64,000 nt of DNA from Halorubrum distributum JCM 10118 (GTDB lineage: Archaea > Halobacteriota > Halobacteria > Halobacteriales > Haloferacaceae), in contig NZ_AOJN01000024.1 in the NCBI RefSeq assembly GCF_000337335.1, forward strand, positions 1 to 64,000, given 5' to 3'. Shown here piece after piece: positions 43,793 through 60,922 of the stretch. Each line of letters begins with the position of its first letter. The first letter of the stretch is position 1. The notes under the pieces were generated by a model, which saw only the letters and a list, made by a program, of their open reading frames with translations, ran no database searches and was not told where the DNA came from. A program made the position numbers and the translations under genes.

Positions 43793-44836
43793 ATGAGTGA
43801 GGAGTTTATTGAGGAGATTGACGATATTCTCTCAGATGTTCTCAGCGATGTCGATGCCACGTCTTCAGCAGAGATAGAGCAGAACATCACGTTCGGACAG
43901 TCGGTGTCTGCTGAGCGGCAAACCGCGATCGTTGATGATGGGATCGACCAGTTAGCGGCTGAGCTGGATGTTCCCGCGGCGACGGTCGATCTTGCAAAAT
44001 CTCTGCGCGATCAGTACCGTGATCAGCGCGGAGACCTCATCGGAACCGCGCTCGAATTAGTCGCTGCTTCATGCTTGTACTGCGCAGTCAAAGTCACAGA
44101 AGTCCCGTTGGATCCAACTGACTTCGTTACCGCGGACGATACTGTGGTGACCCGGAAAGCATTACTTCGACGGTCGAAAGATATCGCCAGTACCGTCGGA
44201 CTCGACCCGTCCGCGTTCTTCGGCAGCGGACAGTATGTGGACCGGTACTGCGACGCGCTCGACGTGAGTGACGCAGTCAACGAGCGTGCACGCGAGATCA
44301 TCGAAATCACAGAGGAATCCGGGCTGTCCAGCGGGAAAAGCCCGTCCGGCTGGGCCGCCGCGGCCGTGTACAACGCGTGTCTCGACGTCGGTGAGAAACG
44401 GACGCAACAGGAACTCAGTGGGATAGCGAACGTCTCGGAAGTAACGATCAGAAACCGGTATCAGGAACAGCGCGCCGGCCTGCGGCAGGCCGAACCGCTC
44501 CCGGCTGACCCGATCAAAGTTATCGACCACGTCGCGGGTGCAAGCGAGGTCGGGTCGGCAACCAGAGACCTCGCGGAACTGTTGATTGAAAATGCACGGG
44601 CGGACGAGTACCCTGTTGATAAAGAAGCGACGCTGTGGGGGCTCGCGGCACTCCGGCGAGCAAGTCAACTGACAGATGGCGACATCAAAATCAAAACGCT
44701 CTCTCAATACACGGACGAAAGCTCGGATGAAATATCCTCACGAGCGAGACGGTTGCGCTCTGTCTTGGATCACCGTGAGTTGAACGACTCCCGCTTCAAA
44801 CACACTCAGCAAGCGAGCGAGTTCGAACAGGACTGA
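43793..44836 (+). CDS. TFB-like factor lacking the zinc ribbon
   Basis: The 347-residue protein has cyclin-like repeats of transcription factor B: one around 45-140 (LIGTALELVAASCLYCAVKV), one around 160-235 (SPSGWAAAAVYNACLDVGEK, then VSEVTIRNRYQEQRAGL) and a third helical block (about 240-325: EATLWGLAALRRASQLTDGD). The N-terminal zinc ribbon that recruits RNA polymerase is absent: there is no CxxC. It is replaced by an acidic segment EEFIEEIDDILSDVLSDVD. Likely an island-specific promoter factor or a competitor of cellular TFB. Confidence 0.75.
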   Translation: MSEEFIEEIDDILSDVLSDVDATSSAEIEQNITFGQSVSAERQTAIVDDGIDQLAAELDVPAATVDLAKSLRDQYRDQRGDLIGTALELVAASCLYCAVKVTEVPLDPTDFVTADDTVVTRKALLRRSKDIASTVGLDPSAFFGSGQYVDRYCDALDVSDAVNERAREIIEITEESGLSSGKSPSGWAAAAVYNACLDVGEKRTQQELSGIANVSEVTIRNRYQEQRAGLRQAEPLPADPIKVIDHVAGASEVGSATRDLAELLIENARADEYPVDKEATLWGLAALRRASQLTDGDIKIKTLSQYTDESSDEISSRARRLRSVLDHRELNDSRFKHTQQASEFEQD

Positions 44837-44999: not shown

Positions 45000-47900
45000 A
45001 TGACCTCGCCGACCCGGCGCGGTTTCCTGTATGGTCTCACACTCACTGGCGGTGTCGCTGCAGGGTGTTCCACCGCCGGGTTGGTCACGGCACAGGAGAC
45101 GTCGATTGGTGACTCGCGGATGGACCAGTACGACGCCGCGAACACCGGGTACGCACCGAACGAACGTGGGCCGCGGAGTAATCCGCGGGAACTGTGGCGT
45201 TCCGACGCCGGTGACGCACTCATCGGTTCCGCCGCAGTCGTCGATAGCGTCACATACACGGCGGATGAGACCGGGACTGTTCGTGCTCTCGACGCCGTCA
45301 CCGGAATGGAGCAGTGGGCGGTCGATCTCGACGAGGAGATCGTTACATCCCCGGTTATTGCCGGTGAAATGGTCTGCGTTACGACGGGTGAATCACTGCA
45401 CGCACTCGACGTGAGTGATGGCGCTGAGAGATGGGTCGAAACGATCGGTGCCGACCCGTCATCCCCGATAGTGACCGACGGGGTGATCTTCGTTGCCGGG
45501 GGAAACACCGTACACGCGTTCGCTCTTGATGGAACGGCTGCAACGGCCGTCGATCTGACGGGTGAGATTGTCTCGACACCGGCAGTCGACGGATCCACGT
45601 TGTACGCCGCGACTGACGCGGGCACGGTGTACGCGTTCGACGTCGAGCGGTCGACCAGTTCTGTGACGCTCACCGAAAGGTGGACGACCAGTACGGTGAT
45701 CGACCGGCGACCGACCGTCACGGTTTCAGGCGGAATACTGGTCGTTACCGGGGCGAGTCCGGGTGAGGGCGAACAGGGGCGCGTCTACGCACTCAGTGCG
45801 GACACCGGAGAGGACCAATGGGCGTTCAGTACCACGAGATGGATTGAGAGCGGGGCCGCGATTGATGATGACACCGTGTACGTCGGCGGGGATAACGGCG
45901 ATGTCGTTGCATTAGCGGCGGAGTCGGGGGCGGAGCGCTGGCGGTTCAATGCGAACGACTCGTGGAGTTTCCTCTACTGGGGGCCCGGTGTGTCGGGCGG
46001 GCTCGTGGTTACCGACGACACGGTGTACGTCGGGAGCGAAGACTACAACCTGTACGCGATCGATGCGGATACGGGTGCCCCGCAGTGGCGGTTCCCGACT
46101 AGTGACGCGATTGTGTCGACGCCGACGGTCGTCGACGGGATCGCGTTCGTTGGGAGCACTGACGGCGCGCTGTACTCGATCACGTCGCCTGAAGCGTCAC
46201 CGGTTCCCCTCGACGGGGGCGCTGGAGGTGCCGGTGTTGAAACCGATTTTGACGACTCGAATACCGGCGACGGCGGGGTCCTAGGATTCAGTTTGCCGAA
46301 CGGTCTATCGGGGCTTGTCACGTCACCAGTCACGCTGCTCGTCCTCGCCATCGGACTGCTGTACGGAATTGCGTCGATCGCGTTAAACGACAGCGACGGA
46401 AACGACACGGCGTCGACGGGATCGGCGGCCGAGGCCCAATCGACGCCAGCAATCTATAGAGGATCTGCATCGTCTATAACCGTCGAATCGGACACTGAGT
46501 CAGGGACACCTGTTGAATCGGCCGGCAGCGTTGCGTCAGGGGCAGCCGATGAAGTACGGGGCGAATCACCCGACGACAGGGGTGACGGGTCGCAACGCAC
46601 CGAGCTACTCGACGAGTTACGCGAGTTGGACCGCAAGTGGTCGGAGATCGACCGGACACTGCTTTACTCCGTCGGTAACCATCACCCCGACGAGTACGAA
46701 GACATCTTCGGGAGTCTTGACGCCGCACTCGCCGTCGCCGGCGTCCACGATCCAGACGACTCCGCAACGCCGTCAAATGAGACTGACTCCGACCCCGCAG
46801 ACACCACCTCCAGCACGTCCACGCGTGACACCGACGAGGCGGCGGAAACCACGGAAACGTCGTCCGAGACTCCCAATTCCCAGACAAGGACAAAAAAGAC
46901 AACCACAGGGATGCCATCACGCGAGGCGCTCATCAACGAGTTACAAGCACTCGCGGAGGACTGGGACACAATCGACCGGAAACTGTTGTACTCCGTCGGG
47001 AACCACCACCCGGACGAGTACGAAGACGTCTTCGGGAGTTTCGACGCGGCGCTCGTTGCCGCCGACATCGCCGACCCGGACACAGCGACGGCGGTCACCG
47101 CGGACAAATCGTCACCATTCGATGAGCACGACGAACTCATCACCGAACTCCAAGAACTCGCGGAGGACTGGGACACGATTGACCGGAAACTGTTGTACTC
47201 CGTCGGTGATTACCACCCGGACGAGTACGACGACGCGTTCGGAAGCGTCGATGCCGCTCTCTTCGAAGCCGGACTCACAGACACTGACACGACCGATGAC
47301 GACACAGCCGCCGAGACCGCCGAGAACTCGACGGATACAAGACCCGCGTCGACTACCGGGAAGCAACCGCAGTCAGTCGATTCGAGCACCATGACCGATC
47401 TTCACTCGAACGAACTCGCCGAGCTGTACGTCGCGTTCGACCGGTTCCAGCACCTGTTAACCGAGCTCGCAGGCGAACTCGACACCGACGGGACCGCACC
47501 GATGGAGCAGTGGGCGGACGCTGTCGCCGACCACTGGGGCAGCGGCGGCCCGGCCGGCGCGCCGAACTACGGCGTTCAACAGCGCGACCGGAACGACTTC
47601 AGCATCCGCGACTACCGCGACGCGCACGGCGACGGCGAGCGCGTCACGGACTTCCATCACGTCGAGTTCGCCCCTGCCGACGACCGGATCCAGCACTTAC
47701 TCGGCGACGCGATCGACGACTGGGACCACGCCGTCCCCGTCGCACCCGACTCGAACACGCCGCTCCCCGTCGCTATCGCAAGCACCGAAGCGCTCGACAC
47801 AGCTATCGAACTGCTCGACGAATTCCCCGCGTACCCCGACGCCGACCGCCCAGCACCGGACGACACCGACGTGAGTCCGGACAGCCCGACCCTGCCCGAC

Positions 47901-48869
47901 GGGCGCGTCGACACGCTCACCGTTACTGTCCTCAACCACGACCCGAACCCCGGGTCGAAACGCGACGCCCGTCTCCAAGTCGCACTCACAGACGGCACCG
48001 AAGTCCCGCTCGACATCTGGTCCACACACGACCTCTCGCTTGACTGGAGCGTCGGCGAGACGTACACGATCGAGCAAGCTCGGCACAAAAGCTGGGAGAC
48101 AAGCACCGGGACCGGACACCAACTCAGCAGCACGAAAGACTTCCGCGTCATGCCAACTGACGCTGGCTCTGCGGGCAACACGCCGGACATCAACCCGCCG
48201 TCACGGTCGAGCGCGGATACGAGTTCGACGTCCGGACGTAGCCGGGACACCAGTACGAGCAGTGGAAAGAGCGCTTCGAACAGTGGCAGAAGTCGAACGA
48301 GGAGTAGTGGCACCCCAAGCCGTGGCGACCTCCTTGACGCGATGCAGCACGTCGGCGAGACGATCGACCGGCCGTTGAAAGCGAGCGACGTGAGCGACAC
48401 CACAGCGTATTCCGTGAATGATATCACCCGCGTGTTCGGTTCCTGGCAAAACGCCCTCGACTCAGCCGGCATCGACAACAAAGCCCGACTCATCGACGAC
48501 CTGCACCGCGTCGCCGACACCCTCGGACACCGCCCCACCACCACCGAAATGAACGAGCACGGGCACGTCTCCGCCACCACCTACGCCACGTACTTCGGCA
48601 CGTACACCGCCGCCGTCGAACAAGCGTTCGACGAAGCAGAAGCCACTCGTTCACCGACCGGCACGGACACCGCAGATCAGGCCGACGCCACGAAGACGGG
48701 ATCCGGCGCGAGCACAGCGAGGAGTGGGGGGACAACCGCACGGGACACTGGAGACAGCGACCAGGCCACCAGCGGTGATGAGAGCACTGGCACGACCCCT
48801 GACGACGACGGGATTCTCGGCGATATTATGAACGATTTCGACGAATTTTCTGATTCCGAAGCGGAGTGA
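45000..48869 (+). CDS. Giant Tat lipoprotein: PQQ propeller, TM, HARE repeats, OB-like domain
   Basis: The 1289-residue protein starts with a twin-arginine signal and lipobox (TRRGFLYGLTLTGGVAAGC). Residues about 40-415 form a PQQ/BamB-like beta-propeller (repeats such as VRALDAVTGMEQWAVDL and LYAIDADTGAPQWRFPTSDA). A membrane helix follows (about 437-464). The C-terminal part should be cytoplasmic: three near-identical homing-endonuclease-associated repeats (about 535-581, 643-692, 711-760; core LLYSVGNHHPDEYEDVFGS), an unknown block (800-940), an OB-like segment (970-1054), two more repeats (1110-1157, 1164-1211) and an acidic tail DDGILGDIMNDFDEF. Domain calls are by eye; no homologue of this full architecture is known to me. 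Confidence 0.75.
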   Translation: MTSPTRRGFLYGLTLTGGVAAGCSTAGLVTAQETSIGDSRMDQYDAANTGYAPNERGPRSNPRELWRSDAGDALIGSAAVVDSVTYTADETGTVRALDAVTGMEQWAVDLDEEIVTSPVIAGEMVCVTTGESLHALDVSDGAERWVETIGADPSSPIVTDGVIFVAGGNTVHAFALDGTAATAVDLTGEIVSTPAVDGSTLYAATDAGTVYAFDVERSTSSVTLTERWTTSTVIDRRPTVTVSGGILVVTGASPGEGEQGRVYALSADTGEDQWAFSTTRWIESGAAIDDDTVYVGGDNGDVVALAAESGAERWRFNANDSWSFLYWGPGVSGGLVVTDDTVYVGSEDYNLYAIDADTGAPQWRFPTSDAIVSTPTVVDGIAFVGSTDGALYSITSPEASPVPLDGGAGGAGVETDFDDSNTGDGGVLGFSLPNGLSGLVTSPVTLLVLAIGLLYGIASIALNDSDGNDTASTGSAAEAQSTPAIYRGSASSITVESDTESGTPVESAGSVASGAADEVRGESPDDRGDGSQRTELLDELRELDRKWSEIDRTLLYSVGNHHPDEYEDIFGSLDAALAVAGVHDPDDSATPSNETDSDPADTTSSTSTRDTDEAAETTETSSETPNSQTRTKKTTTGMPSREALINELQALAEDWDTIDRKLLYSVGNHHPDEYEDVFGSFDAALVAADIADPDTATAVTADKSSPFDEHDELITELQELAEDWDTIDRKLLYSVGDYHPDEYDDAFGSVDAALFEAGLTDTDTTDDDTAAETAENSTDTRPASTTGKQPQSVDSSTMTDLHSNELAELYVAFDRFQHLLTELAGELDTDGTAPMEQWADAVADHWGSGGPAGAPNYGVQQRDRNDFSIRDYRDAHGDGERVTDFHHVEFAPADDRIQHLLGDAIDDWDHAVPVAPDSNTPLPVAIASTEALDTAIELLDEFPAYPDADRPAPDDTDVSPDSPTLPDGRVDTLTVTVLNHDPNPGSKRDARLQVALTDGTEVPLDIWSTHDLSLDWSVGETYTIEQARHKSWETSTGTGHQLSSTKDFRVMPTDAGSAGNTPDINPPSRSSADTSSTSGRSRDTSTSSGKSASNSGRSRTRSSGTPSRGDLLDAMQHVGETIDRPLKASDVSDTTAYSVNDITRVFGSWQNALDSAGIDNKARLIDDLHRVADTLGHRPTTTEMNEHGHVSATTYATYFGTYTAAVEQAFDEAEATRSPTGTDTADQADATKTGSGASTARSGGTTARDTGDSDQATSGDESTGTTPDDDGILGDIMNDFDEFSDSEAE

Positions 48870-48923: not shown

Positions 48924-50261
48924 TTACGCCGTGGTCCAGATTCGACCGTGTGGCCGCCCGTGAACGCTGTCCATCGCCATGAGTACTTGCGTGACGTACT
49001 CCCACAGTTCAGTCCGGTCCCGATCGCCAACGTCAACGGCGTCCCACACGGCCTGCTTGACGTGCTGTGAACGCGCGACCGTGCGCTCGCGGATATACCG
49101 CGCAGCGGCGACGGCACCGTCCACCACTCCCGACTCCGTGTACGCACCGAACTCCGGTGACTCCGTCTCCTCCTGACCGGACACCGTATCGGAGTCTTGT
49201 TCTGAACGCACAGCCCGGGCTCCGGTCGAGCCTGACGCCTCACGAACGGTGGTTTCAGCCGCATCGGACCGGTCCCGACGCTCGGAATCACCGGCCTCTG
49301 CCGACCGCGGCGAATCCGTACCCTCATCGGCACGCGCTGTCACCCCGTCGTCCGTCTGCGCGTCAGTCTCCACATCACCGACGGCCTCCGTACTTGCATC
49401 CTCCTCACCGCCGTCCGCCTCGTCAACCAACGACGAGAACGACGAGGCGATCTCGCCGAGCATCCCGCCCTCGTTTTGAATCTCATCGAACGAGACGTCC
49501 GGTGCCGGGCGCTCTGCATCGGAACTGTACTCGGCTAAATGCCGCCGCGGATCCAACTCCGCGTTGATAAACAACGGTTCGAAATCAGCATCTTCGAAGA
49601 TCCGGTCGTACTCCGCGAGGATACCTTGCAGTGCAATCTCACCGTCTACTGTGACCGTATACGTCTCATCGATCGTCGCGTGCAAGTCTCCGTTCGACGC
49701 GGTGTCGTGACTCTGCAGCTGCTCCGACGCAGTGCTCACCGGTTCGATGAGATGACTGCGAAGGAATCGCGTCAAAAACCCGATTTTACTCTCATCAACT
49801 GTTGAAACGGCACCGAACAACTCTCGCGGCGTGAACCGGTCCCGGTCCAGCATCGCTTCAGTCAACGCGCGGTACTCATCGTACGTCGCCACCAACCACA
49901 ACATGTCGTACACGATCGGGTTGTACTCCTCGGGCGGCGCCGGAATGATATCGAACAGGAATGCGAGATCGTCCGGCGTGAACCCCTGTTGAAGTAACTG
50001 GCGCTCCCCGGACATCCCGCGGTTCAACTGGATTTCAAACAACCACCGATACCGGATCACCAAGCGAACCAACGCCCACTCACGGTGCGCCGAATCAAAA
50101 TAAATCGCGTACACACCGGTCGCAGCGGACTTCGCCGGCACAATCCGGAGTGACTCGATCGAATCATCACGGAGCACGTCCTGCGGCTGGCGTGTCAACT
50201 CATCACGAAACGTCGGACCTTCTTTGATAATTGACACAGGGAACCCGGAGCGATTCGTCAT
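48924..50261 (-). CDS. Uncharacterised protein, 445 aa, last gene of SMC operon
   Basis: An N-terminal domain (about 1-250, starting MTNRSGFPVSIIKEGPTFRD) has mixed alpha/beta character. Then come a segment like the shared tail motif (EGGMLGEIASSFSSLVDE, about 268-285), a long acidic low-complexity linker (about 288-380) and a C-terminal helical, winged-helix-like domain (AAARYIRERTVARSQHVKQA). No catalytic motif is recognised. It is the fifth gene after helicase, small protein, ATPase and 171-residue protein, with a gap of only 65 bp. Confidence 0.65.
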   Translation of the reverse strand: MTNRSGFPVSIIKEGPTFRDELTRQPQDVLRDDSIESLRIVPAKSAATGVYAIYFDSAHREWALVRLVIRYRWLFEIQLNRGMSGERQLLQQGFTPDDLAFLFDIIPAPPEEYNPIVYDMLWLVATYDEYRALTEAMLDRDRFTPRELFGAVSTVDESKIGFLTRFLRSHLIEPVSTASEQLQSHDTASNGDLHATIDETYTVTVDGEIALQGILAEYDRIFEDADFEPLFINAELDPRRHLAEYSSDAERPAPDVSFDEIQNEGGMLGEIASSFSSLVDEADGGEEDASTEAVGDVETDAQTDDGVTARADEGTDSPRSAEAGDSERRDRSDAAETTVREASGSTGARAVRSEQDSDTVSGQEETESPEFGAYTESGVVDGAVAAARYIRERTVARSQHVKQAVWDAVDVGDRDRTELWEYVTQVLMAMDSVHGRPHGRIWTTA

Positions 50262-50325
50262 GGAAACCTCATCATTAGTGAAAGTATGAGTGCTTTCCTG
50301 TGACGACTCGGGTGAAGCGACGTGA

Positions 50326-50841
50326 TCAGCTGCTCATCATGTCGCTATCGAAGCTATCGACGATCTGTGAGAGGATATCCTCGTTGTCCGTGGTGCCGTC
50401 GGCCTCGTGGAACTTATCGATGAACGAAACGAGCCCGTCACGCGGCGGGTTCGCCGCGTCGCCGAACTCGCGGTCTAACCGCATCGCCCCGGCGTGCGCG
50501 TACCGTGCGAGCACCTCCAGTTGCGTTTCCGGTTCCACGAGCGCGCTCGAATCGCTCGTGTGCTGATACGCGATCGACGCGGCGACCGCCCGGTACGTCG
50601 GCTTGTCAGTGAAATGCATCCACAGCATTTCGCCTTGCGTTCCCTCGTCGGTTTTCCCTTGGAACTCTTTGTCGGCGTACGTGTTCACCGTCGGCCGGTC
50701 GCTCACGGCGTACCCGACGCTCGCCGAGAACACGAAGAAATCGACGAGGCTATCGAATATCTCCCAGTCGCTCACCATCTGATCGTAAATGTCGTGCCGG
50801 TGGTAGTACTGCCGTGTCGTCGCCGTACTGGAGTCGCTCAT
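50326..50841 (-). CDS. SMC-operon accessory protein, 171 aa
   Basis: The ATG overlaps the stop of the SMC-like ATPase gene by four bases (ATGA), so it is coupled to it. The protein is mostly helical (QMVSDWEIFDSLVDFFVFSA; HAGAMRLDREFGDAANPPRD), with no zinc or catalytic motif. Its size and position resemble middle components of ABC three-component or Lamassu-type systems. The C-terminal tail NEDILSQIVDSFDSDM matches the tail motif of other island proteins. Confidence 0.7.
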   Translation of the reverse strand: MSDSSTATTRQYYHRHDIYDQMVSDWEIFDSLVDFFVFSASVGYAVSDRPTVNTYADKEFQGKTDEGTQGEMLWMHFTDKPTYRAVAASIAYQHTSDSSALVEPETQLEVLARYAHAGAMRLDREFGDAANPPRDGLVSFIDKFHEADGTTDNEDILSQIVDSFDSDMMSS

Positions 50842-52877
50842 TGATTCACCTTCTGAGAAATCTCTTCTTCAACGATCCGGGTCCGCGGGTACGACGTGTC
50901 ACCGTCGCCGTCGTCGAAATCAAGCCGGTACTGCCGACTGGCGATCTCGTTCATCTCGTTCGCAACCGGGCCCCGCCACTGCGAGTCCGTGACGAGCACC
51001 ACGACCTGCTCGGCCATCCGCGGGATCACGCGACTCACCGTCCGCCGATGGTCGTCGTCTAACGCCCCGAACGGCGAATCCATCACGATCGGGTAAATCC
51101 CGCCGCTGAAATACTCCGCGTCAGTATCCGACTCGTACCGTTCCCGGGCAATCTGCACGAGACTCCCGATGAACGTCAGACTCGCAATCTGCCGTTCCCC
51201 ACGCGACTTGTCGACCTCCAAGTACTCACCCTGCAACTGATCGCGGATCCGGAGTTCGAACTCGTCCGTAATCTCGGCCTCATATCCCTTCGTCGCAATC
51301 TCATCAAACGTCTTCGACACGAGATCGTTCGAGTACTCCCGCACCTGATTCTGGAGCTGTTCGAACGACGCTTCAAGTTGCTGTTGGACCTTCGACGTCG
51401 CCTGCATCCGTCGCCGCGCAAGCTCGGCTTGACTCTCCTCTTGCCGCGCCTCATCGATCTCCTCGCCGATTTCTTCAAGCCGTTCCTCGCGCGTCTCGAT
51501 ATCACGCTCCAAATCCCAAATCTCGCGTTTCAACTCCTCACGTTCAGATTTCTTCCGGTTCCGCGCCGACTCCAACTCGGACGGCGTTTCGCCCGTCTCG
51601 GGATCCGTGATGTTCATCTCCTCTAACTCGCCTTGAATCTCGTCTAACTGCTCGTCAACGGACGTGAGTTGATCCCGTAATTCCGACCGCTCCTCAAGCA
51701 GCTCGTCAACCGTGTCCAAATCCTCCGCCTGCTCGTCCTGAATACTGGTGAGATGCGAGATAATCCTGATCGCCGCCTGATCAACCCCGTTCTCCGCTGC
51801 ATCCGACCGGTACGCCTCAACGCTGTCGTACGGGTGTGTCCCTTCCTCTAACGGTCGGCCACAGATACACTCGCCTTGCGCGAGGAGCTTGTCCACGAAC
51901 TGATTCGACACCTCTGACGGGATCTCACCGCGTTCGCGCAGATCGTCAAGGTCCTGTGCCGTTGCTTCGATCGCTGGCATCACGAACGGGAGGTGACCCT
52001 TCTTACTGATCTCCGCGTCAATCGACTCGTTGATCTCCGCGATTTCCGCCTGTAACGCGTCCTGCCGCGACTCCAACCGGTTCCGTTCTTCTTGTAACTC
52101 CGCTGCTTCTTCGATCCCTTCGAGCTTCCGCTCGATCTCACTGATTTCCTCTCGAAGCCGTTGGCGGCTCTGCTTTTTCGTGTCGATCGACCCGGTCAAA
52201 TCCTCAACCTCGTCTCGAAGTTCACTGCGCGTGTCGATCAGGTCAGATAACTCCGAGTTCCCGTGTTCCTGCACTTCCGATTCGAACCGTCCCTCAACCT
52301 CACCGAGATGCCGGATCGACCGCTCGATGATGGTGAGGCCCATAATATTTTGAATCGCCTGCTTCACCTCGTCTTGACTGTGCCCCTCGGAGAGCTGTGT
52401 GATGTACTCGCCGTCGAAAAAGAACAGGTCGCTCAACCGGTCGGGGAGAATCTGCTCGATCGACCGCTGCGGGTTCTGTCGCGTCCCGCGTTTCCCGTCC
52501 GCCGTCTCGTAGGACAACGACAGGTCCTCATCGACGATCTCGCCGAGATAATCGTCCGTCGCCTGCCGCTGATACTCGTAGGACCGCGTGACTTCGTAAT
52601 CGACGTCCTCGTGTTCGAACTCCAGTGCCACTTCGACTGACACCGTCTCACCTGGGTCCACCTCAGCGAGCGCGCCTTGACTAGCGAGCTTGTCAGGTCG
52701 CAAGTTAAAATTCGACTCGTCGTACAGCACCCACAGGAACGCGTTTTTCAGCGTCGTCTTCCCGGACCCGTTCTGCCCGTGCACAACGGTGACGTTCTGA
52801 TCGTCACCTAACGCGAACTCCACGGTTTCAGACCGGAACTGCCGGAAATTCGTGAGGTGCAGTCGATGCAGTTGCAT
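50838..52877 (-). CDS. SMC/DndD-like ATPase with zinc-hook cysteines
   Basis: The 679-residue ATPase begins QLHRLHLTNFRQFRSETVEF, with Walker A GQNGSGKT (residues 34-41). ILPDRLSDLFFFDGEYITQL is characteristic of DndD/RecF-related ABC ATPases. Two coiled-coil arms (about 195-300 and 365-520) flank a hook with C337-x-C339 in ECICGRPLEEGTHPY. The C terminus has the ABC signature region (SRGERQIASLTFIGSL) and Walker B VMDSPFGALDDDHR. Likely a DNA-sensing or remodelling ATPase of a defence system; no dndC or dndE is nearby. Confidence 0.85.
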   Translation of the reverse strand: MQLHRLHLTNFRQFRSETVEFALGDDQNVTVVHGQNGSGKTTLKNAFLWVLYDESNFNLRPDKLASQGALAEVDPGETVSVEVALEFEHEDVDYEVTRSYEYQRQATDDYLGEIVDEDLSLSYETADGKRGTRQNPQRSIEQILPDRLSDLFFFDGEYITQLSEGHSQDEVKQAIQNIMGLTIIERSIRHLGEVEGRFESEVQEHGNSELSDLIDTRSELRDEVEDLTGSIDTKKQSRQRLREEISEIERKLEGIEEAAELQEERNRLESRQDALQAEIAEINESIDAEISKKGHLPFVMPAIEATAQDLDDLRERGEIPSEVSNQFVDKLLAQGECICGRPLEEGTHPYDSVEAYRSDAAENGVDQAAIRIISHLTSIQDEQAEDLDTVDELLEERSELRDQLTSVDEQLDEIQGELEEMNITDPETGETPSELESARNRKKSEREELKREIWDLERDIETREERLEEIGEEIDEARQEESQAELARRRMQATSKVQQQLEASFEQLQNQVREYSNDLVSKTFDEIATKGYEAEITDEFELRIRDQLQGEYLEVDKSRGERQIASLTFIGSLVQIARERYESDTDAEYFSGGIYPIVMDSPFGALDDDHRRTVSRVIPRMAEQVVVLVTDSQWRGPVANEMNEIASRQYRLDFDDGDGDTSYPRTRIVEEEISQKVNQ

Positions 52878-53108
52878 CTATTCCGGGATCTCCTCTTCGA
52901 CGATCTCTCGGATCTCCGGGATGATCTTGTGCGGGCGGCGCATGTGGAGCTGCTCGCTTTCCGCCTGTAACGTCCGCTCTCGAATCCGTCGCAGCGTCTC
53001 GTCCCCAATATCAGCTGTTGACCCCTGATCGTCCATGCTTCGAACGTATCTGTCCCTCTGTCTTAATGATTGTTCCAGCTTGGAGACACTCCCGTCACCG
53101 ACAGTCAC
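52878..53108 (-). CDS. Small charged protein between helicase and ATPase genes
   Basis: The product has 76 residues if the GTG at 53108 is used (MTVGDGSVSKLEQSLRQRDR) or 52 if the ATG at 53036 is used. It is highly charged and helical (ETLRRIRERTLQAESEQLHM) and ends in EIREIVEEEIPE. Its TAG directly precedes the ATG of the ATPase gene, so translation is coupled. Probably an adaptor of the ATPase or helicase. Confidence 0.55.
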   Translation of the reverse strand: MTVGDGSVSKLEQSLRQRDRYVRSMDDQGSTADIGDETLRRIRERTLQAESEQLHMRRPHKIIPEIREIVEEEIPE

Positions 53109-53150
53109 GGCACGATACCGGAACGCAAAGCCCGCAGCTCCGGCATGCGC

Positions 53151-54575
53151 TTACAACTGCCGTAAGTTGAACGCGCGCTTCAACTCCCCGATCGCTCCGG
53201 CGTCCGTCGAGATGCCTTGCACATCTGCATCAGGATGATTCCGCGCTGCCTCCCCGAACAGATTCACGCGCTCCAGCTCTTGCCGAACGAGATTCCGCTC
53301 CGTTTTGAACCGTTCGTCACCCGCCGTCGCGTCCCGGATCTCGCTCGGCGGTGCCACGATAAAATCGTGAATCACCGCGTGTTGCTTTCCCGGGTGTGTC
53401 CGGAGAATCCGGCCGCGGCGTTGCACGAACTGCCTGGGGTTCGACGAACTCGCCAGCACGTATGCCGTCCGCGTCGCCGGCACGTCAACTCCTTCATCGA
53501 GACACCGAATCGCCACCAACGCTTCCACGTCACCAGCATCGAACGCCGCGAGCAACTCCTCGCGTTCTCCGCGGTCCTCATCTGCTGTGAAGCGCTTCGC
53601 ACGAATCCCGAGCTTCCGCAGCGTAGACAGCGCTGCGTCCACGTGCCGCTCCGTCCGGTCCCCCACGCTCCCCTCAACCGTCCCGTCCCCGCAGTACACC
53701 AGCGTGTGCTCAACTGGGCCTTGCTCACCGATCAACTGCATTAACCGGTCGAGTTTATTCTCCGCGCTCCCGATCAACCGCGCCCGCTCGAACAACGCGA
53801 ATTTCAAATCCGTCTGCTCGTTGTTCTCGGCGTCGCCCAAGTCACCGCCGTACCGCTGCACCAACCGCGCGATCTTTCTGGACAACCCGAGGTACTCGTC
53901 TTCTTCTTCCGGCGTTAACTCGACGACATGCGGGATGTAGTAATACTCACACAGGTTCCCGTTCCGGATCGCTTCCTGCAACGAGTACTCGAACACGACA
54001 TCACCGAAATACTCGAACAGCGCTTCCGACCCCTCGTCGTCGTAGAAGCGTTGCGGCGTCGCCGACAGGCCGAGCCGCATCGGGATACTTTCCGGTAACC
54101 GTTCCCGGCGATGCGCCGCCCCGAGGTGATGCACCTCATCGCCGATCAGCATCAGCTCCTGCCGGTTGACCCGAGTGAGGACCCGTTGAAACGCGTCCGA
54201 CGTAAACGTCTCGTGTGTCGTGATCACGACGAATCCGTCACGGAACCCGCGATTGAACTCCGCCACTTGCCCCTCGAACTGATCTTGCCACGTCGCCCGG
54301 GACTCGTACGCACGCACCGGACTCACGCCGAAATCCTGCACGTCCTCACGCCACTGATCGACGAGGTGCTGATACGGCACCGCAATAATCAGGCCGAGTT
54401 TCCCGTCGAGTTGCGCCGTGATCGTACTCGCCGCCATCAACGCAGTCACCGTCTTCCCCGTTCCCGTCGCCATCTGTAACACGCCTTGCGCACCGCTTTC
54501 CACCCACGACCGGATCGCATCCTGCTGATACGACCGGGCTTCAACCCACTCCGGATTCGACAGCGCAAACCCCAT
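53151..54575 (-). CDS. SF2 helicase of XPB/SSL2 type
   Basis: The 474-residue helicase has QMATGTGKTVTALMAASTI (Walker A, about 34-52), the DEVH motif in LIGDEVHHLGAAHR, LGLSATPQRF, and the second RecA-like domain with DEGVDVPATRTAYVLA and QFVQRRGRILR. The N terminus (RSYQQDAIRSWVESG) is the Q-type start of XPB-like helicases. No nuclease domain is fused. It is the first gene of the SMC operon; the divergent mcrB-like gene begins 133 bp away. Confidence 0.88.
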   Translation of the reverse strand: MGFALSNPEWVEARSYQQDAIRSWVESGAQGVLQMATGTGKTVTALMAASTITAQLDGKLGLIIAVPYQHLVDQWREDVQDFGVSPVRAYESRATWQDQFEGQVAEFNRGFRDGFVVITTHETFTSDAFQRVLTRVNRQELMLIGDEVHHLGAAHRRERLPESIPMRLGLSATPQRFYDDEGSEALFEYFGDVVFEYSLQEAIRNGNLCEYYYIPHVVELTPEEEDEYLGLSRKIARLVQRYGGDLGDAENNEQTDLKFALFERARLIGSAENKLDRLMQLIGEQGPVEHTLVYCGDGTVEGSVGDRTERHVDAALSTLRKLGIRAKRFTADEDRGEREELLAAFDAGDVEALVAIRCLDEGVDVPATRTAYVLASSSNPRQFVQRRGRILRTHPGKQHAVIHDFIVAPPSEIRDATAGDERFKTERNLVRQELERVNLFGEAARNHPDADVQGISTDAGAIGELKRAFNLRQL

Positions 54576-54707: not shown

Positions 54708-57092
54708 ATGCGCTCGACGCTCCTTCTCGCGTCTCTCACCGACTCACCCGGTCTCTTCGACACGTACGTGCGACCCGGGATCGACCGCCGCGACTTCCCG
54801 GCCGATCTCCCTGCGACCCACGCCGACCCCGTCCACTGCCTCCCAGTCCCCGCCGACACGGATCTCGACCCCTACCACGCCGTCGGCGACACGATCCTCT
54901 TCGACGTCAACGGCGACCAATACACGTGGGTCGCAACCGTCAACGACGTTCGAACCGCCCCCGGACTCACCGCAGGATCCAACCACTCCGACTCGTCTGC
55001 GACCTTCACCGACACGGTGCTACTGCTCAGCGTCCCACTTCCCGTCACCATCAACCGGCGTGATCTGCACGACACACTCGACACCGACACCACGCAGCTA
55101 CTCCACCGACTCACCGAGACCGAACACGCAGCCGTCGAAGACGACTACGCCACCATTCAACGATTTCTCCTCACGCACCGCGACGACCCAGACGTGTGGA
55201 TCGACACGCGCCCCGATGATACTCCGCACTCGCCCGGCGACACCGCCCGCCTCACGAATCCGCACCTCACCGTCACCGACCACGCAGTAGACGCCGCACC
55301 CGGTGACATCGTCCTCCATCTCTCCAGTGACACGCACACCATCACCGGCACATCAGTCATCGCCACCACCGACACCCCGGACGACACCGCAGCCACCGTT
55401 ACCGTCGGCGAGTACCACGCACTTGATCCCGCAATCCACCTGTTCGAGGACGTACTTGATGACCCGTCGTACAGCACCCGTCTCAACCACATCGCCGACT
55501 CCCACGAGCAGCTCCTCTACGACGCCAACCGCGAACTCGTCGCCGACACGCAGTTCACGCAGTGCCCGCCCGCCCTGCTCGAATTATTCATCGCGGAAGC
55601 CCCGGCGCTCCTCGACCAGCTGAAAACGTGGCACTACCAAGTACAACGCCCCGCGCCCACCGACACGTACACGTCGATCGAGGAAGCGCTCGTCGACATC
55701 CGCGTCCGCATCGCGTTCAGCGACCACGGCCTCGACTGGTTCGCCGACGAAACACTCGCCACCGTCATCACGCACCTCACCGACACGCTTCCGACCATCC
55801 AGCCGGACAGCGACGTCACGCCGCGCGAAGACACGTACTGCGAGATCCTCCGTGACGTGTTCGACAGGACCGAACCGCATCTCACAACAACCGTGTCACG
55901 CCTCGGGATCGGCGCCGTCCAACCACTCAGCGAACCGGAAACCCTGTTTTTTGTCTTATTCCGCGATCTGCAACGCACCGCCGACACGACCGAGTACGTC
56001 AAACCCGTGAACGTCCGCGCCGTCCTCGACGAATCCTACACCGTCACGACGCCGCGCCGCCCGACGACACCGCCGCAAGGCCAACCGCTCGACGCTGCCG
56101 CGAAACCCGACCAGGCCGACGACATCGCCCGGCAACTCGACACGACCGGACAAATCGTGTTCTACGGCCCGCCCGGCACCGGGAAGACCTACACCGCCGC
56201 GCAGTTCACCCGGTGGTGGCTCCACCAACAACCCGGGATCGACCCGACCACCGACCAGTTCGAAACCGTCACGTTCCACCCGTCGTTCACGTACGAGGAC
56301 TTCATCGAGGGCCTGAAAGCCGACAACACCGACGACGGCGTCGTCTACGACTACCAGCCCGGCGTGTTCAAAGAATTCGTCGACGCCGCCCGCGACGCGT
56401 ACCGCACCGCGACCGACGCGCCGCCGCGGTACGTCATGATCATCGACGAGATCAACCGCGGGAACCTCGCGCAGATCTTCGGCGAAACCATCACCGGCCT
56501 CGAATACGACAAGCGGCTCGACGCCGCCAACGAAACCAGCGTCTCACTCGCGCACTCCGGGCAACCGTTCACCATCCCGCCAAACCTGTACCTCATCGGC
56601 ACCATGAACACCGCCGACCGATCCATCGCACTCGTCGACGCCGCCCTCCGCCGCCGCTTCCGCTTCCTCTCATTCCCCCCGAACTTCGACGCCATCATCG
56701 AAGACGACACCACGCCGTTCACCTCCATCGACGCGCTCCGCGCCGCCGCCAACACCCCCGGGCACGCCAACCGCCTGTTCGCACTGACAATCCTCGCCGT
56801 CCGCAAATTCAACGACACGATCCTCACCACCGCCGACCTCGGCAAAGGCAAGCAAATCGGGCACTCCTTTTTCTTCGGGAAAACCACCGGACCGGAACTC
56901 GTTGACACGTGGCGGTTCGAACTCCTCCCACTCCTCGAAGAGTACTTCTACGGACAGTTCGACCGGATCCGCGACACACTGTTCGACGGCGGCGGCCACC
57001 GCCTCATCAACTACGACAGCGAAGAGATCCGATCGTTCGACGCCGCCACGCTCACCGCCGAACTCGCTGCGCTGCTCGACGTCGACGAGTAA
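54708..57092 (+). CDS. mcrB: McrB-like GTPase with EVE-like N-terminal part
   Basis: The 794-residue AAA+ protein has Walker A FYGPPGTGKT (GPPGTGKT at 487-494), Walker B MIIDEINRGNLAQIFGE (about 577) and the McrB-type sensor GTMNTADRSIALVDAALRRR (about 631). The N-terminal half contains two PUA/EVE-like strand patterns (GDTILFDVNGDQYTWVATV near 58; GDIVLHLSSDTHTITGTSVI near 199), plausible readers of modified bases. GTP-driven DNA translocation with an McrC nuclease partner is expected; the partner follows after six bases. Confidence 0.85.
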   Translation: MRSTLLLASLTDSPGLFDTYVRPGIDRRDFPADLPATHADPVHCLPVPADTDLDPYHAVGDTILFDVNGDQYTWVATVNDVRTAPGLTAGSNHSDSSATFTDTVLLLSVPLPVTINRRDLHDTLDTDTTQLLHRLTETEHAAVEDDYATIQRFLLTHRDDPDVWIDTRPDDTPHSPGDTARLTNPHLTVTDHAVDAAPGDIVLHLSSDTHTITGTSVIATTDTPDDTAATVTVGEYHALDPAIHLFEDVLDDPSYSTRLNHIADSHEQLLYDANRELVADTQFTQCPPALLELFIAEAPALLDQLKTWHYQVQRPAPTDTYTSIEEALVDIRVRIAFSDHGLDWFADETLATVITHLTDTLPTIQPDSDVTPREDTYCEILRDVFDRTEPHLTTTVSRLGIGAVQPLSEPETLFFVLFRDLQRTADTTEYVKPVNVRAVLDESYTVTTPRRPTTPPQGQPLDAAAKPDQADDIARQLDTTGQIVFYGPPGTGKTYTAAQFTRWWLHQQPGIDPTTDQFETVTFHPSFTYEDFIEGLKADNTDDGVVYDYQPGVFKEFVDAARDAYRTATDAPPRYVMIIDEINRGNLAQIFGETITGLEYDKRLDAANETSVSLAHSGQPFTIPPNLYLIGTMNTADRSIALVDAALRRRFRFLSFPPNFDAIIEDDTTPFTSIDALRAAANTPGHANRLFALTILAVRKFNDTILTTADLGKGKQIGHSFFFGKTTGPELVDTWRFELLPLLEEYFYGQFDRIRDTLFDGGGHRLINYDSEEIRSFDAATLTAELAALLDVDE

Positions 57093-57098
57093 CCCGGC

Positions 57099-58391
57099 AT
57101 GCCCACACCGCCCGACACGACCGGTGACCCCGGCGCGACCGACCCGCACCCACCCCGCAACGAGACGCACGTCATCACCGAGTACGACTCCACTCCACCG
57201 ATCCCGCTGTCCGAACAGGCGCGAGCGTACCTCCGCGATGAAATCAACGGCGGCACCGACCGCGACGGTGACCGCATCAACGTCACGTACACGCCCGACG
57301 GCGACGCCGTTCTCACCGCTACGTCGTACGTCGGGCTCATCGCACTCCCGAACGGTCCGACACTCGAAATCCGGCCGAAGCTCCCCGCCACCAACCTCCT
57401 GTACATCCTGCAGTACGCCACCAACGTCTCCGCCGACACGTTCGACACCGACACGCAACTCCAAGCCGGCACCGTGTTCGTCGACGCGCTCGGCGTCCTG
57501 TACGAACGCGAACTCCAACGCGTCCGCAACCGCGGCCTCCACACCGACTACGTCACCCGGCACGCCACCGAACAACGCCTCCGCGGCCGCCTCGACATCC
57601 AACGCCAACTCCAACGCCAACCGCCCGTCCCCACCGAATTCGAATGCACCTACCAGGAGCTCACGCCTGACATCCCGATCAACCAAGCCATCCTTCAAGT
57701 CACCGACGCCCTCCTCCGCATGGTCACCGACGACCAGCTCACCAGCGCCCTCCAACGCCACGCCCACGCCCTCCGCCGAGACGTCACCCGCACCCACATC
57801 ACCCACAGCGACATCGCCACCATCGAACTCACCCGCCTCAACGACTACTACGACCACATCCTGCAGCTCACGAAACTCTTCCTCCGCAACAGCCACGTCG
57901 GCGACATCACCACCGGCACCCGCAACGCCTTCTCCCTGCTCGTCAACATGAACACCGTCTTCGAAAACGCCGTCACGCACGCCGCCGACACCGCCATCAC
58001 CGACCGTGACGGGTGGCGCATCACCCGGCAAGACAACAGCAAACAACTCATCCACGACGGCCGCTTCAACGTCACGCTCAAACCCGACTTCACTATCCGC
58101 GACCCCGACGGTGCCGTGCAACTCATCGGTGACGCCAAATGGAAACACGGCACCCCGCCCAACGCCGATTTCTACCAAATGGCCGCCTACCAACAAGCCC
58201 ACACCGCCCCAAGCCTCCTCGCATACCCGTCACAAGGCGGCACCGTCACCGACACCTGCACCATCGTCAACGGCCACCCACTCCACCTCATCGAACTCCC
58301 AACCACCGACACGTACCCGTCATACGACGCGTTCCGAACCGCCGTCACCACCGCGATGACCACCGCCATCGACACCGCAGTCACAAAATAG
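57099..58391 (+). CDS. mcrC: McrC-like PD-(D/E)XK nuclease subunit
   Basis: The 430-residue protein matches McrC: VGLIALPNGPTLEIRPKLPA near 85, LLYILQYATNVSADTF, and a C-terminal nuclease with D330 in LKPDFTIRD and D345-A-K347 in LIGDAKWKHGTPPNADFYQM. It should cut DNA when activated by the McrB-like GTPase. The intact catalytic residues suggest an active Type IV-like system against modified DNA. Confidence 0.88.
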   Translation: MPTPPDTTGDPGATDPHPPRNETHVITEYDSTPPIPLSEQARAYLRDEINGGTDRDGDRINVTYTPDGDAVLTATSYVGLIALPNGPTLEIRPKLPATNLLYILQYATNVSADTFDTDTQLQAGTVFVDALGVLYERELQRVRNRGLHTDYVTRHATEQRLRGRLDIQRQLQRQPPVPTEFECTYQELTPDIPINQAILQVTDALLRMVTDDQLTSALQRHAHALRRDVTRTHITHSDIATIELTRLNDYYDHILQLTKLFLRNSHVGDITTGTRNAFSLLVNMNTVFENAVTHAADTAITDRDGWRITRQDNSKQLIHDGRFNVTLKPDFTIRDPDGAVQLIGDAKWKHGTPPNADFYQMAAYQQAHTAPSLLAYPSQGGTVTDTCTIVNGHPLHLIELPTTDTYPSYDAFRTAVTTAMTTAIDTAVTK

Positions 58392-58565: not shown

Positions 58566-58586
58566 CACTGATCTGTGAGGAAGTGT

Positions 58587-59690
58587 ATGGGAACCGACGA
58601 ATTAGATGATGAGTTGGCTGACGACATCCTAGACGCTGCGAAAGGACAAGACCCGCCGAAATCGGTCAAGTGGTTTGCAGAGCAGTTCGACATCGGTCCC
58701 AAAGAGACACAGCGTTATCTCACGGCGTGGATCGACGGTGGGTGGATGAAACCGGTTCAAGACAGCGACGGAACGTGGCTGTTTGTCGGCGAAGACGTTG
58801 GGAACTCTCCGTTCAACACGGCTGACAACGTCTTACGAGATATTAACCAGGTCATTCTCGGCGCGGAATTGACTTCGCCAAAACCGGTGTCTTGGTTTGC
58901 GGAAAAAGCGGATACAGCACACTGGAAGGCCCACTGGGCACTCAAAGAACTCAAAAAGACTGGCAGTGTGACCGAACACAACCTTGACGACGTACCGGTC
59001 TACTCCCCACCGCACGTAGAGGCCGTCTCTGACACGCCTCAACTATACCACACACGACATGACACCACAAAACTAGTTTTTCCCAACGGCGACGCACACG
59101 AAGCCACGGTAACTACTGTTGGTGACTGTACAGTCGCTTCCGCATCGAGCAGACATGCTGCTGCCGTGTTCGTCGATGATGAGTTCTCGTTCCTCATTGA
59201 CGAAGACGAACCAATCAGCCGCGTTGCAATCGGAAAAAACGGACACGTAGCATACCACTCAGGCGAGCATCGAGAATCCGTCTTCCACATCACAACGTGG
59301 ACAGGAGAACACCTCCTCGAAGAGCGTGTAGAAGTCGCCCGGTCGCCAGTGTTCACACCTGACGGCGACCACGTTGCCTACTGGCGATTAACCGATCACA
59401 CGGTGTACATTTACAACACAGCAACACGCTCCGTATCCGGCGAGTTCGACACGACAAACATCCGACGAACAAATATTGGCCTCCACGGTGTGACCCGCAA
59501 CGACAGGCCAGCCTTCCAAATCACCGACACCTACGGGCCCGGCGACGACGAAGTACTCGGACACATTTCCCCCACAGGCGAACTACTCGATACCGACCCC
59601 ACCCCAGCTTCAAACCGCACTGAACAAGCAGCTCCCAGCGACGACGCGATCTTAGACGAGATCATGGACGAGTTCGAACACGGACTCTAA
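58587..59690 (+). CDS. Double winged-helix / beta-propeller protein
   Basis: The 367-residue protein starts MGTDELDDELADDILDAAKG. Two winged-helix-like domains follow (about 20-70: SVKWFAEQFDIGPKETQRYL; about 90-130: SWFAEKADTAHWKAHWALKE), then WD40/TolB-like beta repeats (about 145-330: HVAYWRLTDHTVYIYNTATR). The acidic tail DDAILDEIMDEFEHGL matches the tail of the giant lipoprotein. It could be a DNA-binding scaffold or regulator of the island. Family not recognised. Confidence 0.65.
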   Translation: MGTDELDDELADDILDAAKGQDPPKSVKWFAEQFDIGPKETQRYLTAWIDGGWMKPVQDSDGTWLFVGEDVGNSPFNTADNVLRDINQVILGAELTSPKPVSWFAEKADTAHWKAHWALKELKKTGSVTEHNLDDVPVYSPPHVEAVSDTPQLYHTRHDTTKLVFPNGDAHEATVTTVGDCTVASASSRHAAAVFVDDEFSFLIDEDEPISRVAIGKNGHVAYHSGEHRESVFHITTWTGEHLLEERVEVARSPVFTPDGDHVAYWRLTDHTVYIYNTATRSVSGEFDTTNIRRTNIGLHGVTRNDRPAFQITDTYGPGDDEVLGHISPTGELLDTDPTPASNRTEQAAPSDDAILDEIMDEFEHGL

Positions 59691-59968: not shown

Positions 59969-60922
59969 ATGGCAGACGAGTTCATCGACGACATCGATGC
60001 TCATCTCAACGATATTCTCCCGGAGGATCCCGAGCAAATCCGAGAAACCGTCGCCCAAGAAGAGAAAGCCGAGATGATCCAACTCCTCCAACACGCCGCC
60101 GACACACTCGGGAAATCCCCCACCGTCACCGAATTCGACGCCCTCAACCTCGACGTGTCATCCGACGCGATCCGGTACGCATTCGGCACCTGGAACGACG
60201 CGAAAGACGAAGCCGGACTCGAAACCTTCCAACGCGGCACGTCCACCCCGATCCGTGAAAACTATTTCAAAACGATCGACACCACGGAGAAAGCGTACTG
60301 GCTCGGCTCCCTGTTCGCACACTCCACCGTTTCACACAACAACCAGGCTGACTACTTCGCGCTGCAAGTCGTCCGCGTCGTCAGCAAAGAACACTTCGTC
60401 CGCGGCTTCGCCGACGCCATCGACTCGGAGTACTCGATCAACACGTACTCAAACCCGGACCGCCCGCAAGACCAGCAACAAGTCCAACTCCAAATCAGCA
60501 ACCCCACCTTCATCGACCACCTCACCGCCACCGGGTACCCGGACGCATCCAGCGACCCCAGCGACTTCCCCGAACTCGACGACGAGTACCGGCCCGCCTT
60601 CATCCGCGGCTACCTCGAATCCGCCGGGTACTTCCAAACCCAAGGCTGGCGGATCACCGTCGACACCCCCGACCGAGCCGACTGGCTCCGCGACGCCTTC
60701 GAATCGTTCGGCGCAAAACGCCCCACCATCTCCGAAACCACAGACAAAAAACCAAAAGTCAACGTCTCCAACGTCTTCGACATCAAATCCGTCTTCGAAA
60801 CCTGCTGGCCCGACCAACTCGACACCACCCCGTCATGGAACCCATACCCTGCCAAAATCCTCGATTACCTCGAAACCGAATACCCGTACCCAGAAAACGT
60901 CGCGTACCTCCGCGGCGAATAG
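59969..60922 (+). CDS. Homing-endonuclease-associated repeat plus degenerate LAGLIDADG protein
   Basis: The 317-residue protein starts MADEFIDDIDAHLNDILPED. One homing-endonuclease-associated repeat follows (about 34-88: LGKSPTVTEFDALNLDVSSD, then FGTWNDAKDEAGL). Two LAGLIDADG-like motifs then appear: AYWLGSLFAHSTVSHN (about 108-123) and FIRGYLESAGYFQTQGW (about 212-228). The acidic catalytic residue of the first is replaced (AHS), and the second has GYLESAGY rather than G-x-x-D-A-D-G. It may bind DNA without cutting it, a domesticated homing endonuclease. Confidence 0.65.
   Translation: MADEFIDDIDAHLNDILPEDPEQIRETVAQEEKAEMIQLLQHAADTLGKSPTVTEFDALNLDVSSDAIRYAFGTWNDAKDEAGLETFQRGTSTPIRENYFKTIDTTEKAYWLGSLFAHSTVSHNNQADYFALQVVRVVSKEHFVRGFADAIDSEYSINTYSNPDRPQDQQQVQLQISNPTFIDHLTATGYPDASSDPSDFPELDDEYRPAFIRGYLESAGYFQTQGWRITVDTPDRADWLRDAFESFGAKRPTISETTDKKPKVNVSNVFDIKSVFETCWPDQLDTTPSWNPYPAKILDYLETEYPYPENVAYLRGE

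Follow-up and report, generated by a model that had tools for sequence, protein, structure and literature searches.

Five closely packed genes at positions 48924-54575 of Halorubrum distributum JCM 10118 contig NZ_AOJN01000024.1 (assembly GCF_000337335.1) raise the question of whether they form an undescribed defence system, as a first-pass annotation proposed from the sequence alone, or a form of a known one. The window, that is, the whole stretch of DNA analyzed, comprises 64,000 nucleotides, and within it all five open reading frames (ORFs) were found on the minus strand at the annotated positions, with short gaps or overlaps between them. The helicase, the small protein, the ATPase and the 171-amino-acid (aa) protein almost certainly represent pbeA-B-C-D of the PbeABCD (CxC ABC-ATPase/DndE-cognate) system, as judged from profile matches and gene order. 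The proposed defence role is retained, the operon being likely antiviral, but the system is not undescribed, since four of its five genes are pbeA-D in the published order. On balance, we consider it probable that the operon is a haloarchaeal PbeABCD variant, with PbeA deprived of its HKD half and no reliance on phosphorothioation (PT) marks, in which scanning by PbeC-PbeD, stalling by the helicase and a docking tail would act together. The features of the operon are as follows.

53151..54575, minus strand: PbeA-type superfamily 2 (SF2) helicase, 474 aa, without the N-terminal HKD/PLD nuclease domain (PADLOC PbeA, TIGR04095)
52878..53036, minus strand: small protein at the PbeB position, probably 52 aa; a 76-aa ORF starting at GTG extends to 53108
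50838..52877, minus strand: PbeC, CxC-type ABC ATPase with coiled coil, 679 aa (PADLOC PbeC, motifs)
50326..50841, minus strand: PbeD, at the DndE-cognate position, 171 aa (TIGR04062 below cut-off; conserved in 17 sequences)
50335..50388, minus strand: C-terminal helix of PbeD, residues 152-169, with the shared tail pattern (model and pattern statistics)
48924..50261, minus strand: accessory protein of 445 aa, no family; tail-like segment at residues 267-276, followed by a low-complexity linker

The helicase matches the PADLOC PbeA profile with an E-value of 2.7e-164, the match being limited to profile positions 248-681 of 682. It matches NCBIfam TIGR04095, the helicase domain of Dnd-associated restriction protein, at 4e-167 over that domain, with 556.8 bits against a cut-off of 600. 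The helicase motifs are all intact, and the protein is PbeA-like rather than XPB-like, as it had first been labeled. The ATPase matches PADLOC PbeC at 5.5e-225 and TIGR03185 (DndD) with 174.7 bits, under the cut-off of 245.85. Its Walker A, signature and Walker B motifs are intact, and the zinc-hook cysteines ascribed to it are indeed present, in the form of one CxC per chain (CIC at 337) that is invariant in 18 aligned sequences. The likeness to Lamassu and ABC-3C layouts that had been noted does not extend to kinship. Every one of the 25 best of 121 PADLOC matches of the ATPase is to PbeC or DndD, on which ground Lamassu, ABC-3C and Wadjet were rejected; they likewise join an SMC/Rad50-like ATPase to partners, but no characteristic partner of theirs was found here, and the PADLOC scan revealed no LmuA-type effector among the operon partners. 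A wholly undescribed helicase-SMC defence system would agree with the lack of a family for the 445-aa protein and with the weak or missing matches of PbeB and PbeD. However, the helicase and the ATPase match the PbeA and PbeC models at E < 1e-160 and stand in the published gene order, which refutes this view for four of the five genes and leaves it barely credible; the 445-aa gene alone falls outside the known system.

The small protein was assigned to PbeB by its position between pbeA and pbeC and by its alignment with 17 orthologues, and gave no convincing family match in Pfam, PADLOC or NCBIfam. Its ORF of 76 aa is present as annotated, but its true start is probably the internal ATG at 53036, from which the 17 orthologues align; the protein then has 52 aa, and the gap to the helicase gene measures 114 bases. 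The stop of the small gene abuts the ATPase start, and the ATPase gene is directly followed by that of the 171-aa partner with a 4-base overlap, an adjacency as in CxC ABC-ATPase/DndE systems. The 171-aa protein occupies the DndE-cognate position, matching TIGR04062 (Dnd-associated protein 4) at 2.6e-7 with 30.9 bits against a cut-off of 74.25, and the earlier statement that no dndE is present was therefore wrong in substance. The structural model of this PbeD has a mean predicted local confidence (pLDDT) of 78.6 and places a helix at residues 152-169. The 445-aa gene follows after 64 bases.

Two published accounts, of which we drew on parts only, allow a comparison with known systems. Kaur 2024 (PMC10853773) equate the pbeABCD of Xiong 2019 (PMC6459918) with the CxC ABC-ATPase/DndE-anchored systems, which resemble the present operon in their CxC-hook ATPase with a DndE-cognate position, SF2 helicase and small protein; solitary CxC systems without Dnd genes are also described there (PMC10853773). 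PbeABCD of Haloterrigena jeotgali A29 is likewise haloarchaeal and has the same order of helicase, small protein, AAA/ABC ATPase and small protein, the small proteins measuring 66 aa and 152 aa (PMC6459918). In that system the cassette is located behind dndCDEA, a PLD domain forms part of PbeA, and protection requires PT (PMC6459918). By contrast, the operon described here lacks both the PLD/HKD half and DndC, has a tail on PbeD and includes the 445-aa gene as an addition.

The HKD nuclease half of PbeA has been lost, and we hold this to be as good as certain. According to the part of Kaur 2024 used here, HKD is fused to the helicase in the vast majority of CxC systems (PMC10853773). A profile built from 36 fused PbeA N-termini and three haloarchaeal seeds, and searched in six frames, gave no match in the whole window or in the 11 kb that separate it from the contig end. 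The initial remark that no obvious nuclease is present was right. Nor did it match in loci L036-L052 or in two named nuclease-less examples, the Halorhabdus tiamatea plasmid pHTIA and a Natrinema sp. SYSU A 869 plasmid (L and G numbers denote loci and genomes).

The loss is not confined to this strain. In 391 genomes of the class (its own and 390 others), the ATPase has a match at 1e-20 or better in 55 and at 1e-150 or better, here termed close PbeC, in 19, own included. PbeA is helicase-only in 17 of these 19; in G337 it measures 717 aa, includes HKD and is encoded beside dnd genes, and G349 has no helicase nearby. The co-occurrence of the genes, a point on which the first-pass annotation had sought a check, holds for the core: helicase, small protein, ATPase and 171-aa protein stand in the same order in 15 of the 18 other genomes with close PbeC, implying that the arrangement is more than chance. 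One of the 15 (L038/G079) has a transposase gene between the helicase and small genes; the three exceptions are G349, without a helicase in its fetched 20 kb, and G132 and G152, in which the helicase lies about 8-9 kb from PbeC. Within the window, the guanine-plus-cytosine fraction is 0.67-0.74 over positions 1-40000 and 0.50-0.66 over 40001-64000, and the operon lies in the low-GC part, which is what one would expect of an acquired island.

A quick tree of 116 PbeC proteins, with several open forks and some long branches flagged, groups the nuclease-less haloarchaeal PbeC together, with the HKD-bearing L053 and L130 (G337 and a KSB1 bacterium) just outside. The ratio of nonsynonymous to synonymous substitution (dN/dS) is about 0.05 in two comparisons, of G147 with Haloquadratum sp. 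LUM.47 (helicase and PbeC) and of G132 with G152 (PbeC); in more distant pairs the synonymous sites are saturated. These sequence comparisons show the nuclease-less haloarchaeal form to be a conserved clade on which purifying selection acts. A decayed, functionless PbeABCD remnant would account for the missing nuclease half and for the absence of a helicase in the fetched 20 kb of G349; against it stand the intact helicase and ATPase motifs, the same form in 17 genomes and the dN/dS values, and we regard it as most improbable. Cyanobacteria and two Bacillaceae likewise have helicase-only PbeA (43 rows counted as bacterial among the matches listed, although one of the 43, L058, is a Haloquadratum genome). 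Among the matches listed from genome contigs, most are cyanobacterial and two haloarchaeal. As in the present operon, helicase-only PbeA adjoins PbeC there, but those loci form separate branches of the PbeC tree, so that the nuclease seems to have been lost several times, and in many of them a second DndD-like ATPase is encoded close by. The loci retrieved from cyanobacteria (L066-L134) usually have a PbeA of this kind, and their PbeD has a strongly conserved ending, EEFDLSKFL, found in no other ORF at those loci.

The PT genes are missing as well. No DndC match was obtained in the genome of the strain, which is 99.6% complete, and no methyltransferase was found among the scanned genes around the operon, in agreement with the first reading, which had placed no dnd modification gene and no methyltransferase with it. 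Xiong 2019 report, in the part used here, that 165 of 553 PbeABCD have no modification gene nearby (PMC6459918). Among 30 genomes searched, DndC is present in four (G337, G343, G172 and G233), and G233 is the only one of the 18 nuclease-less genomes to have it, on another contig near an HKD-bearing PbeA. From this gene content, we judge it very probable that the system works without PT marks. A canonical PT-dependent PbeABCD with its modification genes elsewhere in the genome would fit the frequent association of Pbe with dndCDEA and the DndC of G233, but it was rejected because the HKD half and DndC are both missing here, and DndC has no match in 17 of the 18 nuclease-less genomes; we give it very little weight. 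The idea that HKD loss goes with PT-gene loss was also discarded as a general rule: many cyanobacterial helicase-only loci have the second DndD-like ATPase near, and among the 30 genomes only three of the 12 haloarchaeal ones with HKD have DndC.

What distinguishes the clade further is the end of PbeD, an acidic amphipathic helix with the pattern PhiLxxIxxxF. L..I...F is found at the PbeD end in 14 of 18 nuclease-less loci versus 2 of 19 HKD-bearing ones (P = 5e-5), or 13 of 17 versus 1 of 13 without near-identical sequences; one of the two HKD-bearing matches (L249) is a chance match inside another sequence. The helix is not restricted to PbeD. A stricter pattern, [ILMVF][LM]..[IV]...F[DESNAG] within the last 30 residues, matches 11 of 231 genes in 17 nuclease-less loci and 3 of 20 in the island of the window. 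Of these 14 matches, six are PbeD and eight are other proteins, unrelated to one another: HNH_repeat proteins, a DUF7342-like protein, a helix-hairpin-helix protein and unknowns. More distant flanks gave 5 of 300, three of the five being HNH_repeat proteins, and the first 40 kb of the window 1 of 36. Among 16 HNH_repeat proteins encoded close to nuclease-less loci or at other places in those genomes (one of them, L053, in the HKD-bearing genome), six carry the tail by pattern and about four more have a similar one by eye, while HNH_repeat proteins of Pbe-less genomes of one genus (20 searched, 15 with a match) have it in none of 18 complete C-termini. In the 445-aa family the tail-like segment is internal, ahead of a low-complexity linker, and a related acidic helix forms the N-terminus of the TFIIB-like protein and of a 317-aa HNH_repeat protein of the window.

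These patterns suggest a docking tail for a common partner, a proposal to which we give an even chance. The alternative is that acidic halophile tails converged without a common function. Haloarchaeal proteins are rich in acidic residues, and the pattern is short and was picked by eye in the window. Against simple convergence stand the controls, which gave 0 of 284 genes at 20 HKD-bearing loci of the class and 1 of 309 in a chromosome sample, and the shuffling: 14 of 242 C-termini match, against a mean of 0.24 in shuffles of the same C-termini (maximum 4, 2000 rounds). In addition, the unrelated families carry the helix at the very end, behind a low-complexity linker. We consider convergence possible but rather unlikely.

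Several carriers of such helices are neighbours of the operon, which are listed here with the adjoining McrBC genes.

43793..44836, plus strand: TFIIB-family protein (PF00382, 3.4e-24), acidic amphipathic N-terminus
45000..48869, plus strand: HNH_repeat protein, 1289 aa (PF18780 and PF13360), convergent with the operon
54708-57092 and 57099-58391, plus strand: McrB and McrC (PRK11331, 1.8e-37; PF10117, 2.5e-52), divergent from the operon
58575..59690, plus strand: 371-aa protein with a weak DUF7342 match (PF24033, 2.4e-8), C-terminal tail ILDEIMDEFE
59969..60922, plus strand: HNH_repeat protein, 317 aa (PF18780, 7.8e-13), acidic amphipathic N-terminus

The 1289-aa protein comprises a signal-like N-terminus, a PQQ-type propeller, a hydrophobic helix near residues 436-462 (hydropathy peak), HNH_repeats and a C-terminal tail, ILGDIMNDFD, located 8 residues from the C-terminus. 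This layout is receptor-like, with DNA-binding-type repeats behind the hydrophobic helix, and the combination of propeller, HNH_repeats and tail is seen also in L190. Proteins similar to the 317-aa HNH_repeat protein occur in the nuclease-less Pbe loci L050, L042, L044 and L253. McrB and McrC are regarded as neighbours and were not assigned to the system; they lie beside one other nuclease-less locus, L042. The TFIIB-family gene has a near-identical start in L184, from another genome of the genus. At 61568-63235 on the minus strand lies a HerA-like ATPase gene, which has closely packed upstream genes in L056 and possibly belongs to another defence operon.

The main rival to a nuclease-free PbeABCD arises from these neighbours: the system would still cut, with a nuclease provided in place of the HKD half by a second large SF2 helicase, by McrBC, by the 445-aa protein or by a neighbouring HNH_repeat protein. 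Ten of the 18 nuclease-less genomes have HNH_repeat genes no more than 10 kb from PbeC (0.23 expected by chance placement), and all five HNH_repeat matches in the strain's own genome fall on the contig of the operon, at most about 8 kb from it. The second, larger SF2 helicase stands beside HNH_repeat genes, or in one long frame with them, in 47 of the 391 genomes. It is present in 10 of the 18 nuclease-less genomes, compared with 37 of the remaining 373 and none of the 20 that bear HKD; in nine of the 10 it is within 10 kb of PbeC. McrB and McrC, moreover, abut two loci. On the other hand, Pfam found no nuclease domain in the HNH_repeat proteins or the large helicase scanned, and no single neighbour is common to all loci. 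A cutting system with a substitute nuclease appears to us a minor, although serious, possibility. The large SF2 helicase and the HNH_repeats, which occur as two adjacent genes or as frames of up to 3293 aa (e.g., G010:C2:1718732-1720906), possibly constitute a defence module of their own; for HNH_repeat in such a setting, nothing was found in the open-licence literature. In the HKD-bearing Pbe loci L242, L246 and L249, an HNH_repeat gene of 517-540 aa without a tail is convergent to PbeD, and in G349 (L050 11236-12414) an HNH_repeat gene takes the place of the helicase, between the small protein and the 445-aa gene.

The fifth gene of the operon has a narrower distribution. The 445-aa protein gave no Pfam, NCBIfam or PDB profile match and a single chance-level PADLOC match (E 0.023), and the winged-helix-like end ascribed to it was not confirmed, its single-sequence model having a mean pLDDT of 37. 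Relatives with 42-48% identity are present in 3 of the 390 other class genomes, in every case on a fetched locus that also contains a close PbeC, and the Natrinema sp. SYSU A 869 plasmid has a fragment some 3 kb away from PbeC. Overall, the family is found at 4 of 18 nuclease-less loci in variable position, implying an accessory role. Other nuclease-less loci have a different extra gene of about 209-223 aa near PbeD, directly downstream in several; the proteins of this family (L039, L044, L045, L046 and L253) consist of two similar domains and end in an acidic amphipathic helix of their own. Viral contigs contained no relative of the 445-aa protein and only weak ATPase matches, the best with 22% identity over most of the length.

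In the mechanism that we propose for the nuclease-less PbeABCD, PbeC and PbeD would form an ATP-driven pair that scans DNA, and the PbeA helicase would move along or remodel invader DNA and stall its replication instead of cutting it, with the small PbeB-like protein keeping the complex in check. The acidic helix on PbeD, on HNH_repeat and other DNA-binding neighbours and on the 445-aa protein would act as a docking tag for one common partner, through which different DNA-binding or sensing proteins could be plugged into the same core. That invader DNA is blocked rather than cut is the likeliest reading, although we give it slightly less than an even chance; it would fit two observations in the part of Xiong 2019 used here, namely that PbeABCD does not cleave viral DNA and that some protection remains after pbeA deletion (PMC6459918), both of which suit a form without a nuclease. 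More tentatively, the Pbe core in haloarchaea may be a nuclease-free, PT-free chassis with a docking code, that is, a plug-in antiviral platform. The same tentativeness applies to the code itself, in which the helix on PbeD, HNH_repeat proteins (of which some seem to be anchored in the membrane with the propeller outside) and TFIIB-like, winged-helix-type and 445-aa proteins would share the tag and sensors would be exchangeable.

A number of points weigh against this mechanism. Kaur 2024 argue, in the part consulted, that HKD cleavage is part of the action (PMC10853773), and a nuclease may act in trans, for which the HNH_repeat and 445-aa proteins are candidates. The PbeABCD of Xiong 2019 gave no protection without PT modification, by the passages used here (PMC6459918), so that a form lacking PT would have to be either inactive or governed by a different self/non-self rule. 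The PbeD model has no solved-structure match, a PDB profile search having returned chance-level matches only, and together with the TIGR04062 match below cut-off this leaves the DndE fold of PbeD unconfirmed. As for the tail, its pattern was defined after the window had been seen, and 3 of its 14 matches come from the window; PbeD lacks the pattern at 4 of 18 nuclease-less loci, HNH_repeat genes are also found next to 4 of 20 HKD-bearing loci (all four, L053 among them, lacking the tail), and no partner for it was identified.

Solitary PbeABCD is already known; what is new here is the terminal helix of PbeD that recurs on unrelated neighbours, most prominently HNH_repeat proteins. In the open-licence literature, including the parts of Xiong 2019 and Kaur 2024 drawn on, we came across neither the nuclease-less clade nor the shared tail, and the same parts of these two papers on PbeABCD contain no fifth gene of the 445-aa type. 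The published accounts conflict, Xiong 2019 reporting no viral DNA cleavage and Kaur 2024 treating HKD cleavage as part of the action, and a conserved natural form without the HKD half and the PT genes makes the question of cleavage directly testable. If the docking tag holds true, it would show how one ABC-ATPase core joins changing sensor proteins, and would provide a handle for finding more parts of haloarchaeal defence islands.

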